NCBI GenBank assembly: GCA_031291675.1
Contig: JARLIO010000034.1
Location: 1-64,000 of the forward strand
Source: Azospirillaceae bacterium
GTDB taxonomy: Bacteria; Pseudomonadota; Alphaproteobacteria; Azospirillales; Azospirillaceae
DNA: 64,000 nucleotides
Direction: 5' to 3'
In this document: piece after piece, positions 50,484 through 54,040 of the stretch
How the letters are laid out: each line of letters begins with the position of its first letter
How positions within the stretch are numbered: position 1 is the first letter of the stretch
Notes under the pieces: generated by a model
What the model was told of the DNA's origin: nothing
Seen by the model: only the letters and a program-made list of their open reading frames with translations
Databases searched by the model: none
Made by a program: the position numbers and the translations under genes

Positions 50484-50678
50484 ATGGGCTCCCAAGAGCA
50501 TGACAAGACCAGACCTCAAATCGAGGACAAAGCAGAGACCGAGTTTGCCGAGGGAAGCCCCGCATTTCTGGAGCGCCGGGATGCGTTGCGAAAAATGGCG
50601 AAGGTTGCGGGGGTGATCCCGCCCGCCATGGCGGCGATCCTCTATTCCCGACGGGCCTTGGCGCTTTCCGGCGAATGA
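50484..50678 (+). CDS. Small peptide, candidate substrate of the following enzymes
   Basis: The 64-residue product opens with a hydrophilic acidic region (MGSQEHDKTRPQIEDKAETE), then LERRDALRKMAKVAGV, a short hydrophobic stretch (VIPPAMAAILYS) and a basic end RRALALSGE. The RRxALRKxA text looks like the twin-arginine/anchor style of alphaproteobacterial leader peptides, but there is no consensus cleavage site after it. It is the first gene of a four-gene group with an ATP-grasp enzyme, a kinase and a nucleotidyltransferase. The ATG at 50484 follows GACGAGAGAAACC. Role as a modified precursor is inference. Confidence 0.55.
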   Translation: MGSQEHDKTRPQIEDKAETEFAEGSPAFLERRDALRKMAKVAGVIPPAMAAILYSRRALALSGE

Positions 50679-50742
50679 TGATGGGCCCGCCCGCGGCCGC
50701 GTCAAGGGCGAGCCGCGGGCTGAAGCTTGGATTGAAATTCCG

Positions 50743-51840
50743 ATGGCATCATGGTCGGTTGTTTTGCCGGATGAAGGGGACGGCGGGGAATCGTTGGACG
50801 GTCATTCCCTCTGCCTGCGGGAAGCAGCACACCGAGCCGGTATCGTCACCGCAGTCAGCCCAGCCCGGTTGTGGAACGATGCCGATCCACTGTGCGCGGG
50901 TCTGCGCCTGACCATCGGGGCGAAGAACTTCTATTACAGGGAGCAGCGCCTGTCGTGGGCGGCCGCTGACGGCGGGCCCGGGGAACCTATCAACGGCACC
51001 GCGCATGCTTTGCTGCGGAACAAGCACCGCACCAAAGCGGTTCTGGCCCAGGCGGGGATACCGGTTCCACCCGGGGCGGTATTTGCCAGCAGCGACCTTG
51101 AACGGGCGTTGCTCTACGCCGCCGAAATGCCGGGTGAAGTCTGCGTGAAACCGAACACGGGGAGCCTGGGGGATCTGGTGTTTCCGGCGTTACGCCATGC
51201 CACGGAGATTTTTGACGCCTGTGTCGCCGTCGCCACCTGTCACGATGAATTATTGATCGAGCGCAGTGTTTCCGGAGAGGTTTGGCGGTTCTTTTTTGTC
51301 CGGCCCGCGATTGTGGGGATGAAGCTCAGCCGCCCGGCCAATGTCGTGGGCGACGGCAAAAGCACAATTGCCGCGTTGATCGACGCCAAACATTCCGAAC
51401 GACGGCGTCGGCGGGTACCCGGGCATTCGGATATTCCGGCGGGCCATGCCCGCGACTTCATGCTCACCCGGCAGGGGTGGGATCTTGAGGCGATCGTGCC
51501 GGCGGGGCGGCGGGTGTTCTTGCATCCGGCGTCGAACGGCGCCATGGGGGCCGACAGCATTACCGATGCGGACGCTCTTCATCCGGGTTACGCGGAATGG
51601 ATCCGCGCCGCCTGTGCCGCGGTGCCGGATCTTCTGTTCTCGGCCGCGGATGTGGTGATCCAGGATCCGAAGGCCGCCCCCGCCGCCGTCCCCACCATGG
51701 AGAACTTTTGGGTCCTGGAACTCAACGCATCGCCGGGCGTTCAGCCTTTCCATTATCCGTGGGAAGGCCCGGCGCAGGATGTGTGCGGAGCGCTGATCGC
51801 GTTACTGTGCGAACTGGCGGCGGCTGATCGTGCCCCCTGA
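50743..51840 (+). CDS. CphA-like ATP-grasp enzyme
   Basis: The 365-residue protein has an ATP-grasp fold that most resembles the central domain of cyanophycin synthetase: RNKHRTKAVLAQAGIPVPPG (about 92-111), VCVKPNTGSLGDLVF, LIERSVSGEVWRFFFV, RPANVVGDGKSTIAALIDA (197-215) and the catalytic metal-binding end VLELNASPGVQPFHYP. It would form an amide or ester bond from a carboxylate and ATP, with carboxylate phosphate as intermediate. The Mur-ligase half of CphA is absent. The frame stays open upstream through the peptide's end, so the real start is uncertain; no Shine-Dalgarno is visible before 50743. Substrate unknown. Confidence 0.8.
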   Translation: MASWSVVLPDEGDGGESLDGHSLCLREAAHRAGIVTAVSPARLWNDADPLCAGLRLTIGAKNFYYREQRLSWAAADGGPGEPINGTAHALLRNKHRTKAVLAQAGIPVPPGAVFASSDLERALLYAAEMPGEVCVKPNTGSLGDLVFPALRHATEIFDACVAVATCHDELLIERSVSGEVWRFFFVRPAIVGMKLSRPANVVGDGKSTIAALIDAKHSERRRRRVPGHSDIPAGHARDFMLTRQGWDLEAIVPAGRRVFLHPASNGAMGADSITDADALHPGYAEWIRAACAAVPDLLFSAADVVIQDPKAAPAAVPTMENFWVLELNASPGVQPFHYPWEGPAQDVCGALIALLCELAAADRAP

Positions 51841-51918
51841 CGGCAGCGTCATGGTCTCAATCTACGGAAAATGGGGTCATGACGGCCGCCAGCGTTTGGC
51901 CGGAAGCGAGGTCGTTTG

Positions 51919-52962
51919 ATGGAGACTCTGTTCCCGATCGACGGTGGCGCGATCCTGGTGCGGCCGGACATCGAGGCTCTGGTCGTCATCCGTTCCACCA
52001 CGTCGGTCGAGACGTTGCCCGAGGGACTGGCAATGCCGGACGGTGCGATCGAGGAACGTTCCGATCGTTCGGCCGTTGCGGCGTACCCGCCGCTGCGGCT
52101 TGAGGGCGCGGTACGCTGGGAAATCGGACTTCGGTTCCTCGGCAAGGCGATCCGGATTCGCAATCGCCTTGCCGAGGTCGATATCGGCCTGCGTCGGCGG
52201 ATCGCTCACCTTGCCGAGGATCTCGGCGCAGAAGGCCTCGGCGAAGAACACGTGATCGACTTTGACCTGACGGCGGATCGCGGCAGCTACACGCTATGGA
52301 AGAATGGCCGCATCTTGTTCACGACCAGCAATCCGGACGAGCTCGCCGGCGAGGTTTGTAATACGCTGTTGACCGTCGCCGTCGCGCCGCAGCAGGTCGC
52401 CCTGTTTGTCCATGCCGCCGGTTTGGTCATCGATGGCGCCACCATGATGCTGTGCGCCCCCTCCGGAGGCGGCAAAACCACCCTGGCCTTGGGCTTGGCC
52501 GCGTCAGGGGCAACATTGTTGACCGACGATACCGTTGCCATCGTCAAGGACGATTTTTCGGTCGTCGGTTTGCCGGTGGCGTTGCGCGTCCGCGCCAGCG
52601 GCTGGCCGGTGGTGGAACGGTTGTTGTCATTTCCGGCCGCGGCCGGCGATCCCAGCCCACGTGGCATTCGCCATATTCCGCCGCGGGTGGTCGGTGAAAC
52701 CCGGCAGCGGGCGTTGCCGGCGGCCGTTGTGGTGGCGCTGTTCTACCGTGCGGGTGCAGACTGTGACTGGCAACCCCTGGACGCCGCAAGCGGCCTTGCC
52801 GCCGTGATCGCGGCGGGGGCGGTGCTGCCGTCGATACCCGACGCGGCGGTTGCCCGAACCTTGGGCCAGTGGTGCCAGCGTACGCGGTTCGTCAGTTTGA
52901 CCTATGGTTCTCTTGAAGACGGCATAAGGGCAGTCCATGCGATCGGAACCGAACGGAGCTGA
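51919..52962 (+). CDS. HPr-kinase-related P-loop kinase
   Basis: The 347-residue protein has the HprK-like C-terminal kinase domain: FVHAAGLVIDG (163-173), Walker A APSGGGKTT (180-188) and LLTDDTVAIV (200-209), the pattern L-H-A-A then G-S-G-G-K-S/T of serine-kinase relatives. About 160 N-terminal residues (LFPIDGGAILVRPDIEALV and RYAEVDIG-like region) are not a known domain to me. Similar kinases act in lasso-peptide and other small-molecule gene clusters. The final 26 bases overlap the nucleotidyltransferase gene. ATG 51919 is preceded by GGAAGCGAGG. Confidence 0.82.
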   Translation: METLFPIDGGAILVRPDIEALVVIRSTTSVETLPEGLAMPDGAIEERSDRSAVAAYPPLRLEGAVRWEIGLRFLGKAIRIRNRLAEVDIGLRRRIAHLAEDLGAEGLGEEHVIDFDLTADRGSYTLWKNGRILFTTSNPDELAGEVCNTLLTVAVAPQQVALFVHAAGLVIDGATMMLCAPSGGGKTTLALGLAASGATLLTDDTVAIVKDDFSVVGLPVALRVRASGWPVVERLLSFPAAAGDPSPRGIRHIPPRVVGETRQRALPAAVVVALFYRAGADCDWQPLDAASGLAAVIAAGAVLPSIPDAAVARTLGQWCQRTRFVSLTYGSLEDGIRAVHAIGTERS

Positions 52963-54040
52963 TCTCCGACGTTTGTTGTGCGCGGTGGTGGGACCGCAAG
53001 CCGCTGCCGTGCCGGTGGCGGCGACAAGCTTCGAAACCTGGTGCCGGTTTCTGGAACTCGCTGGCGAGGCTTGGCTCACCACGGCGCTGGATTGGCGGTT
53101 TCGCGAACTCGGCATTGCCGAGGCGGTGCCGGAGGATGCCCGCACCTACGCCGAAGGTGCGGCAGAGCTGGGCCGAATCCGCACCCGGCGACAGTGCCGG
53201 CAGATCCGGGATCTGGCGGCACTGTTGAATCAGACGGGGCTTCGCCCGATCCTGTTGAAGGGAAGCGCCGCCCATGTCACCGGCCTGTATCCCGACCCCG
53301 GCGCACGGGTGTGCTCCGATATCGATATTCTGTTGCCGGCGGCCGAAATTTCGACGGCGGTCGCCCTGCTGGGCCAAAACGGCTACGCTCCGGGGCCCGG
53401 CGTTCACGGCCAGGGTGTCGCCGATCCCCGCCACGCGCCGCGGTTGTTCCATCCGGCCGCGCTGTTCGGTGTCGAGATCCATCATGATCTCGCCGACAGG
53501 TCGCACCGCGCTGTCCTGCCGGCGGCAGAGGCAATCCGGGGGGCGATGCCGCTCGAAATTGACGGGGTCTCGGTTTCGGTTTTGAGGCTCGACCACAGGG
53601 TCGTCCATTGCCTTCTGCATTTGCTGGAAGACAACTTTTACAATGGCACGATCGCCTTGCGGCAGCTTCTGGAACTGCGCCAGCTTGCCCGAGGGCTCTC
53701 AGATCCAGCGTGGATTGGCATTGCGCAGCGTTTTCACGATGCCGGGGCAGAGGCCGATCTGGAGTACGGGCTTCTTTTGGCGTCGCGTCTGGCTGGCATG
53801 CCGTTACCGGCCTTGCGGTATCGGCCGCAAGCACGCCTTCGGGCAGCGATCGCCGCAACCCTGTTCATCTCGGCCCCCGGGATTGCGGCAGTCTATGGCA
53901 CGGCCCGCAACGTGGTGTTGACGCTGCGGCGCCAGGGGCTGCCGCAAACATTGCGCAATGTGGGCCATGACGGCAAGCCCTTGAGGCGAGGGATCACGAC
54001 GATCCGAGCGGTTTGTCGCAAAAGTCATCAGCTGTCGTGA
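52937..54040 (+). CDS. Nucleotidyltransferase family protein (NTP_transf_5-like)
   Basis: The 367-residue protein has the nucleotidyltransferase core LLKGSAAHVTGLYPDPGAR followed by SDIDILLP: KGS at 108-110 and the metal-binding acidic pair DID at 128-130. A histidine-rich helical remainder follows (FGVEIHHDLADRSH, then DHRVVHCLLHLLEDNFYN). This is the pattern of the uncharacterised nucleotidyltransferase family often found beside HprK-like kinases and peptide-modifying enzymes. It may adenylylate or otherwise nucleotidylate a hydroxyl group. It overlaps the kinase gene, so the two are probably co-translated. No further gene of the group follows on this strand. Confidence 0.82.
   Translation: MRSEPNGADLRRLLCAVVGPQAAAVPVAATSFETWCRFLELAGEAWLTTALDWRFRELGIAEAVPEDARTYAEGAAELGRIRTRRQCRQIRDLAALLNQTGLRPILLKGSAAHVTGLYPDPGARVCSDIDILLPAAEISTAVALLGQNGYAPGPGVHGQGVADPRHAPRLFHPAALFGVEIHHDLADRSHRAVLPAAEAIRGAMPLEIDGVSVSVLRLDHRVVHCLLHLLEDNFYNGTIALRQLLELRQLARGLSDPAWIGIAQRFHDAGAEADLEYGLLLASRLAGMPLPALRYRPQARLRAAIAATLFISAPGIAAVYGTARNVVLTLRRQGLPQTLRNVGHDGKPLRRGITTIRAVCRKSHQLS

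Follow-up and report, generated by a model that had tools for sequence, protein, structure and literature searches.

A four-gene cassette of the Azospirillaceae as a candidate small phosphopeptide pathway with an optional ATP-grasp ligase

Positions 50484 to 54040 of the 64,000-nucleotide stretch analysed here (the window; contig JARLIO010000034.1 of the Azospirillaceae bacterium assembly GCA_031291675.1) hold four genes on one strand, which encode a peptide of 64 amino acids (aa), a CphA/GshAB-type ATP-grasp ligase, an HprK-like kinase and a nucleotidyltransferase of the NTP_transf_5 family. This array is a conserved set and more than a chance arrangement. Our contention is that it probably yields a very small, ribosomally made and modified peptide, in which a Ser would be phosphorylated, the transferase would act on the phosphate and an amide would be formed at a Gly-Glu tail. 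The best reading of the cassette is as a relative of HPr-rel-A, linear polyphosphorylated peptide (LPP) and paeninodin-type pathways that is poor in the recognition element (RRE) associated with ribosomally synthesised and post-translationally modified peptides (RiPPs). The features of the cassette are these:

50484..50678, + strand: 64-aa precursor-like peptide, MGSQEHDKTRPQIEDKAETEFAEGSPAFLERRDALRKMAKVAGVIPPAMAAILYSRRALALSGE; conserved at homologous loci, with coding composition
50574..50663, + strand: leader-like segment of the peptide, RRDALRKMAKVAGVIPPAMAAILYSRRALA, with twin Arg, a hydrophobic stretch, RR and an AxA-like site, from the alignment of kinase-linked peptides
50667..50675, + strand: putative core of the peptide, Ser62 (predicted phosphorylation site; the Ser is conserved, its modification presumed) and Gly63-Glu64
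50743..51840, + strand: CphA/GshAB-type ATP-grasp amide ligase, 365 aa, compact, without a Mur-ligase domain
51919..52962, + strand: HprK-like Ser kinase, 347-348 aa, with an alternative TTG start 3 bases upstream at 51916
52937..54040, + strand: NTP_transf_5 nucleotidyltransferase-fold enzyme, 367 aa

Analysis of open reading frames (ORFs) and profiles confirmed what an earlier note on this DNA had read in the cassette, namely the four ORFs with their positions, strand and family assignments, and the 26-bp overlap of kinase and nucleotidyltransferase; the gaps between peptide and ATP-grasp and between ATP-grasp and kinase are 64 bp and 75 bp, and ATG 51919 is the likelier start of the kinase. 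The note had also remarked that a lasso cyclase, its protease and a PqqD-like protein were missing, and indeed none is found among the four operon genes, the last by search with Pfam and NCBIfam profiles.

A conserved set around a small peptide

The 64-aa peptide is the product of a real gene, because its codon-position GC (0.65/0.49/0.69) fits that of the three neighbouring genes and is unlike that of its other two frames, because AAGGACGACAGGGACGAGAG lies upstream of its ATG, and because its sequence is conserved at equivalent loci. It matches no Pfam or NCBIfam model. Peptides at equivalent loci in three genomes resemble it with E values of 1e-7 to 1e-8 (about 1e-28 with a profile), and a profile search of 82 genomes of the window's own family gave strong scores at the four known loci only.

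Our genome samples comprised these 82 Azospirillaceae, 385 genomes of the class and 140 of the phylum. Three other genomes of the family have the kinase subfamily, namely those of Azospirillum halopraeferens DSM 3675, Nitrospirillum iridis and Azospirillum sp. B4. The closest relative, at 44-45% identity, is found in WY1.bin62, a proteobacterial metagenome-assembled genome (MAG). These five kinases form one clade with support of 100/100, the nucleotidyltransferase tree is compatible with it, and peptide, kinase and NTP_transf_5 genes are clustered in all five members; the class and phylum samples added no member with a similar score, which marks the subfamily as rare. The expectation that the three enzymes occur together therefore holds for the kinase and the nucleotidyltransferase, along with the peptide, but not for the ATP-grasp, which is optional. 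It stands beside the kinase set in the window (one copy) and in A. halopraeferens (three copies); searches of the N. iridis and B4 genomes at E 1e-20 and of the MAG at 1e-5 gave no match.

A more distant kinase occurs in G488, a genome of the MAG's family, at a locus that combines this HprK-type kinase with a 60-aa peptide, an NTP_transf_5 protein (PF14907, E 3e-34), glycosyltransferases, three ATP-grasps, which fall in the same subfamily with 35-40% identity, and a PqqD protein encoded by a gene of its own (PF05402, E 1.5e-10, exceeding the cut-off). Since PqqD-type RREs are a RiPP hallmark, this locus provides the clearest tie to RiPP pathways. The three loci with ATP-grasps (window, A. halopraeferens, G488) differ in gene order. 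The peptide gene is the first of the set in the window, N. iridis and B4, lies between ATP-grasps in A. halopraeferens, and is 3' of kinase and nucleotidyltransferase in the MAG and G488, which disposes of the suggestion that it always precedes the enzymes. Located 5' of the G488 cassette (L179:9285-17000, contig C41) are an AAA ATPase and, judged by eye, possible contractile-injection or tail-like proteins.

In the kinase-linked peptides a twin Arg, replaced by KR in G548, is succeeded by a hydrophobic stretch and an AxA-like site. A Ser comes next, and by eye it is at +1 or +2 of the site in 13 of 14 peptides. With a slash after the site, the sequences read ALA/LS in the window (Ser at +2), VLA/AS in A. 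halopraeferens, ARA/GS in B4, SRA/GS in N. iridis and AHA/S in the MAG, and elsewhere ATA/S (G488), AIA/KS (G348), AAA/GS (G186), AVA/NS (G383), ASA/TS (G370) and AAA/VS (G548); both peptides of G087 have the site followed by Ser. Our automatic A-x-S picker took an earlier A-x-S in G087b, G383 and G370, and their positions come from alignments or sequence. Hence the RRxALRKxA text, formerly put forward as the conserved signature, does not stand alone; the Ser after the AxA-like site is also informative.

What follows this Ser differs between loci. In the clade members without an ATP-grasp (N. iridis, B4 and the MAG) the Ser is the final residue (GS, GS, AS), whereas the tails at loci with an ATP-grasp are SGE (window), SGGEC (A. 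halopraeferens) and SGGGGEEG (G488). An S-G(n)-E tail is thus found in 3/3 peptides with an ATP-grasp and 0/11 without, where for most of the 11 the locus was read near the cassette only and absence means absence nearby; the Fisher p of 0.003 rests on three positives and treats loci as independent, uncorrected for ancestry. When the two peptide groups were compared by profile, their features fell in register, but weakly (P 0.005, probability 6.8%).

Other small ORFs were considered. A 57-aa ORF of A. halopraeferens (L054:11744-11917), which lies before the first ATP-grasp and overlaps its start, carries an RRRDEPVK stretch and may be a decayed second peptide; we do not claim it as a second precursor, because it is unlike the window peptide (shuffle p 0.48) and only weakly like its own neighbour (p 0.008). 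Peptides of an RRRFLxxCGKFA type, several of them ending in an NNGFGNG-like tail, occur at loci L161-L163, L166, L168 and L170, where the surrounding 1.5 kb or so contains neither a kinase nor a nucleotidyltransferase gene.

The enzymes and the recognition element

The kinase matches TIGR04352 (HprK_rel_A) with E 6e-12 and 45.3 bits and TIGR04355 (HprK-related kinase B) with 29.6 bits, the cut-off being 200 bits in both cases. Its P-loop is at 52456-52482, and His165, the GK of the P-loop and Asp203 (numbered from ATG 51919) are invariant over 20 homologues. An AlphaFold model (mean predicted local distance difference test, pLDDT, 88) places it in the HprK/PEPCK fold, with Z 13.8 and a root-mean-square deviation (rmsd) of 2.2 over 131 residues to HPr kinase 1ko7, and Z about 15 and rmsd 4.3-5 to PEPCK. 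The kinase had no plasmid match.

With regard to peptide recognition, a PqqD domain is fused to the kinase N-terminus in Thiosymbion (L070) and G383 (L079), and weakly in G348. The window kinase has no Pfam PqqD match; its model has three confident N-terminal strands, and residues 28-55, which sit where the fused relatives carry the PqqD helices, are mostly below pLDDT 50. The A. halopraeferens kinase starts downstream of the N-terminal RRE-like region, and a search of solved folds with the window model for a PqqD-like fold gave a list filled by the kinase domain. These features, with a short beta-sheet left of the RRE-like region in the window kinase, suggest an RRE that has degenerated or disappeared in this clade, in which case the kinase would recognise the peptide otherwise or through an RRE in trans. 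The latter may be available, because the genome holds five PqqD matches, all on contigs other than that of the cassette. The same genome has two clusters on contig C9 (L057:5524-9416 and L058:289-4106) with an HprK-like kinase, a PqqD-type protein and an Asn-synthase-like enzyme, and in one of them a sulfotransferase; these are possible lasso-like or related RiPP loci.

The nucleotidyltransferase matches NTP_transf_5 (PF14907) with 127 bits, the cut-off being 31, and in its KG...D-x-D motif (DID at 53318-53326) both KG and D-x-D are unchanged among 18 homologues. Its profile found no match among PDB sequences; its model (mean pLDDT 88.7) has an MNT-like fold nearest to MenT1, TM1012 and ANT(2'') (Z 12-13), with Z 13.3 and rmsd 3.1 over 182 residues for MenT1. 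We do not claim CDP-alcohol transfer, for which FKRP gave a Z of only 7.9.

The ATP-grasp is matched over residues of about 90-360 by GshAB (E 1e-36) and CphA (E 4e-36) profiles and by solved cyanophycin synthases (E 1.2e-37 to 7wac), and keeps the E-x-N Mg-ligand motif at 51718-51726. Its first 85 residues are a domain common to the entire subfamily, and the match ends at position 477 of 862 of the CphA profile, so that the 365-aa protein has no C-terminal Mur-ligase domain. GAK models are not in its match list, and a single-protein scan of the genome contigs found no relative. In the ATP-grasp tree the window and A. halopraeferens enzymes, those of G488 and those linked to acyl carrier proteins in Azospirillum are separate supported groups within one 100/99 clade. 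The last group belongs to a cluster (L138-L143, L181:7682-11370) in which a sister CphA-like ATP-grasp is accompanied by an acyl carrier protein, a hydrolase-like protein and an ATP-grasp of YheC/D type; some strains have type I secretion genes close by. An apparently frame-shifted ATP-grasp with the same N-terminal domain occurs in G338 (L005:1265-2581), with no kinase or nucleotidyltransferase nearby. Taken together, the profile and fold matches point to a kinase, a nucleotidyltransferase fold and an amide ligase, but define no substrates.

Third-position GC is 0.69-0.75 across the whole cassette, lower than the 0.82 of the upstream gene, a hint of foreign origin but no proof. Upstream, across a gap of about 500 bp, lies a pentapeptide-repeat protein gene on the + strand (48697/48748-49986), which nothing ties to the cassette; the first long ORF on the 3' side is on the opposite strand. 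There was no Rfam match, and promoter and terminator signals were not above those of shuffled sequence.

A proposed pathway and its alternatives

In proposing what the cassette makes, we draw on characterised tailoring enzymes. PadeK and PsmK act on lasso precursors, in which they phosphorylate a C-terminal Ser, and PsmN installs hexoses on the phosphorylated Ser (PMC9266682); LppK polyphosphorylates Ser3 of a linear peptide, directly after the leader cleavage site, in clusters that include an NTP transferase (Popov et al. 2026, PMC13381572). By analogy with these enzymes, most of the peptide, with its acidic N-terminus, twin Arg, hydrophobic stretch and AxA-like site, would be leader; the kinase would phosphorylate Ser62 directly after that site, and the NTP_transf_5 enzyme would build on the phosphate by adding a hexose or a nucleotidyl or phospho-sugar group, as proposed for PsmN. 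A signal-peptidase-like enzyme of the host may cleave off the leader; alternatively, the peptide may remain membrane-held. CphA and GshAB form amide bonds. This chemistry and the tail correlation suggest amide formation by the ATP-grasp at the Gly-Glu tail, the likeliest reaction being addition of an amino acid to a Glu carboxylate or the C-terminus. The earlier view that the enzymes act in turn on the peptide or on a small metabolite can be narrowed: co-occurrence in five genomes and a distant locus, compatible trees, and tails that track the ATP-grasp indicate a co-travelling set that most likely acts on the peptide.

Several observations weigh against this pathway. No RRE, peptidase or exporter is encoded among the four operon genes; the Thiosymbion peptide, without the A-x-S pattern, is the sole exception of the 14; the tail statistic has the small and phylogenetically uncorrected basis given above, and the connection between the two peptide groups is weak. 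Members of the ATP-grasp family also occur elsewhere without kinase or peptide, adjoining an acyl carrier protein, and deletion of LppN, the NTP transferase of LPP, caused no detectable change (PMC13381572).

Other explanations fit parts of the same evidence. The cassette might be a divergent HPr-rel-A-like set beside an unrelated ATP-grasp acquired by chance, with no role in the pathway, as kinase-nucleotidyltransferase pairs are common and the ATP-grasp is optional and found elsewhere too; we think this unlikely given its co-location in three differently ordered loci and a peptide tail that differs with its presence. The peptide could instead be a LysW-like carrier, whose C-terminal Glu the ATP-grasp would load, with kinase and nucleotidyltransferase acting on a cargo that is released later. 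The window peptide does terminate in Gly-Glu, and in Azospirillum the neighbours of the sister ATP-grasps are an acyl carrier protein and another ATP-grasp, of YheC/D type. However, peptide, kinase and nucleotidyltransferase persist without the ATP-grasp, with Ser last, and HprK-type kinases target Ser hydroxyls; the tails of A. halopraeferens (GEC) and G488 (EEG), a LysX score of 18.6 bits against a cut-off of 275.6, and the lack of a reductase or aminotransferase also make a carrier quite unlikely.

A regulatory or cell-surface module, in which phosphorylation of a membrane-held protein with an anchor of twin-arginine type signals or tethers a glycan, would account for the hydrophobic segment that leaves few residues behind it, for the glycosyltransferases of G488, and for the first recognition of LPP clusters in capsule loci (PMC13381572); with neither regulator nor polysaccharide gene in the window operon, and with tail diversity and ATP-grasp gain that look biosynthetic, it is a decidedly improbable account. 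As for a defence or toxin-antitoxin module based on a nucleotidyltransferase like MenT, MenT1 is among the nearest solved folds, but TM1012 and ANT(2'') score about equally, the partnership with kinase and peptide is conserved, and PADLOC reported no system, with no match for ATP-grasp or nucleotidyltransferase and a P-loop match only for the kinase; we give this idea hardly any credence. The phosphopeptide pathway remains our preferred reading. A bolder form of it, possible though doubtful, is a distinct RiPP class, in which the core on a leader-like segment would measure roughly two to eight residues, one Ser would be phosphorylated by an HprK-like kinase that has no functional RRE, and a Gly-Glu tail would then be extended by one to three CphA-like ATP-grasps. 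If the tail is so extended, much of the final molecule would be the product of non-ribosomal ligation on a tiny ribosomal primer.

Relation to known systems

The architecture had been regarded as one that could not be placed, but it is related to HPr-rel-A cassettes and to LPP (PMC13381572). LPP clusters similarly have a short precursor, an HprK-like kinase and an NTP transferase with no lasso (macrolactam) cyclase at the locus, and their phosphorylated Ser adjoins the leader cleavage site as the window Ser is near its AxA-like site. However, the discrete RRE, SpI-like leader peptidase and MsbA-like transporter of LPP have no equivalent in the window operon, and the leader motif YxxPxVLxHQxIxFETxxS is absent from the window peptide, which has RR...AxA instead; the window system has a core of few residues and a CphA-like ATP-grasp and belongs to Pseudomonadota, while LPP belongs to Bacillota.

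Paeninodin and pseudomycoidin tailoring (PadeK, PsmK, PsmN) likewise pairs an HprK-like kinase with a protein of NTP_transf type, which is said to work on the phosphate. Its C-terminal Ser is matched by the relatives without an ATP-grasp, whereas the window peptide ends in SGE; the window operon has no lasso cyclase (Asn-synthase-like), B1 or B2 protein, and its peptide is not lasso-like.

Cassettes of HPr-rel-A (TIGR04352 kinase, TIGR04353 PqqD) share with the window a kinase of HprK-rel-A type adjoining an NTP_transf_5 gene, a partner that we take to be a defining component, and share with the window's relatives a PqqD domain, which in these relatives is fused to the kinase or encoded separately. 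The window differs in its kinase score (45 against 200 bits), in having no PqqD at the locus and in possessing an ATP-grasp; with respect to GAK, its kinase is below the TIGR04355 cut-off (29.6 against 200 bits). The ATP-grasp has the core of about 270 residues and the Mg-ligand motif of CphA and GshAB, but is a stand-alone protein of about 365 aa in a different context, with its own N-terminal domain and no Mur-ligase or GshA part.

The literature that we searched has no description of the cassette as such, and searches by name for HPr-rel-A, HprK-related kinase and GAK found nothing within the open papers covered. If our reading is right, the logic of phosphopeptide RiPPs would extend beyond Bacillota to Pseudomonadota, here with an exceptionally short core, and a CphA-type ATP-grasp would be tied to a peptide, with a candidate residue named, through a tail that varies with its presence. 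The four-gene system would make testable both the role of the NTP_transf_5 partner and peptide recognition by a kinase without an intact RRE. Assembled from known kinds of parts, the cassette is best compared with RRE-associated phosphopeptide cassettes, of which we consider it a variant.

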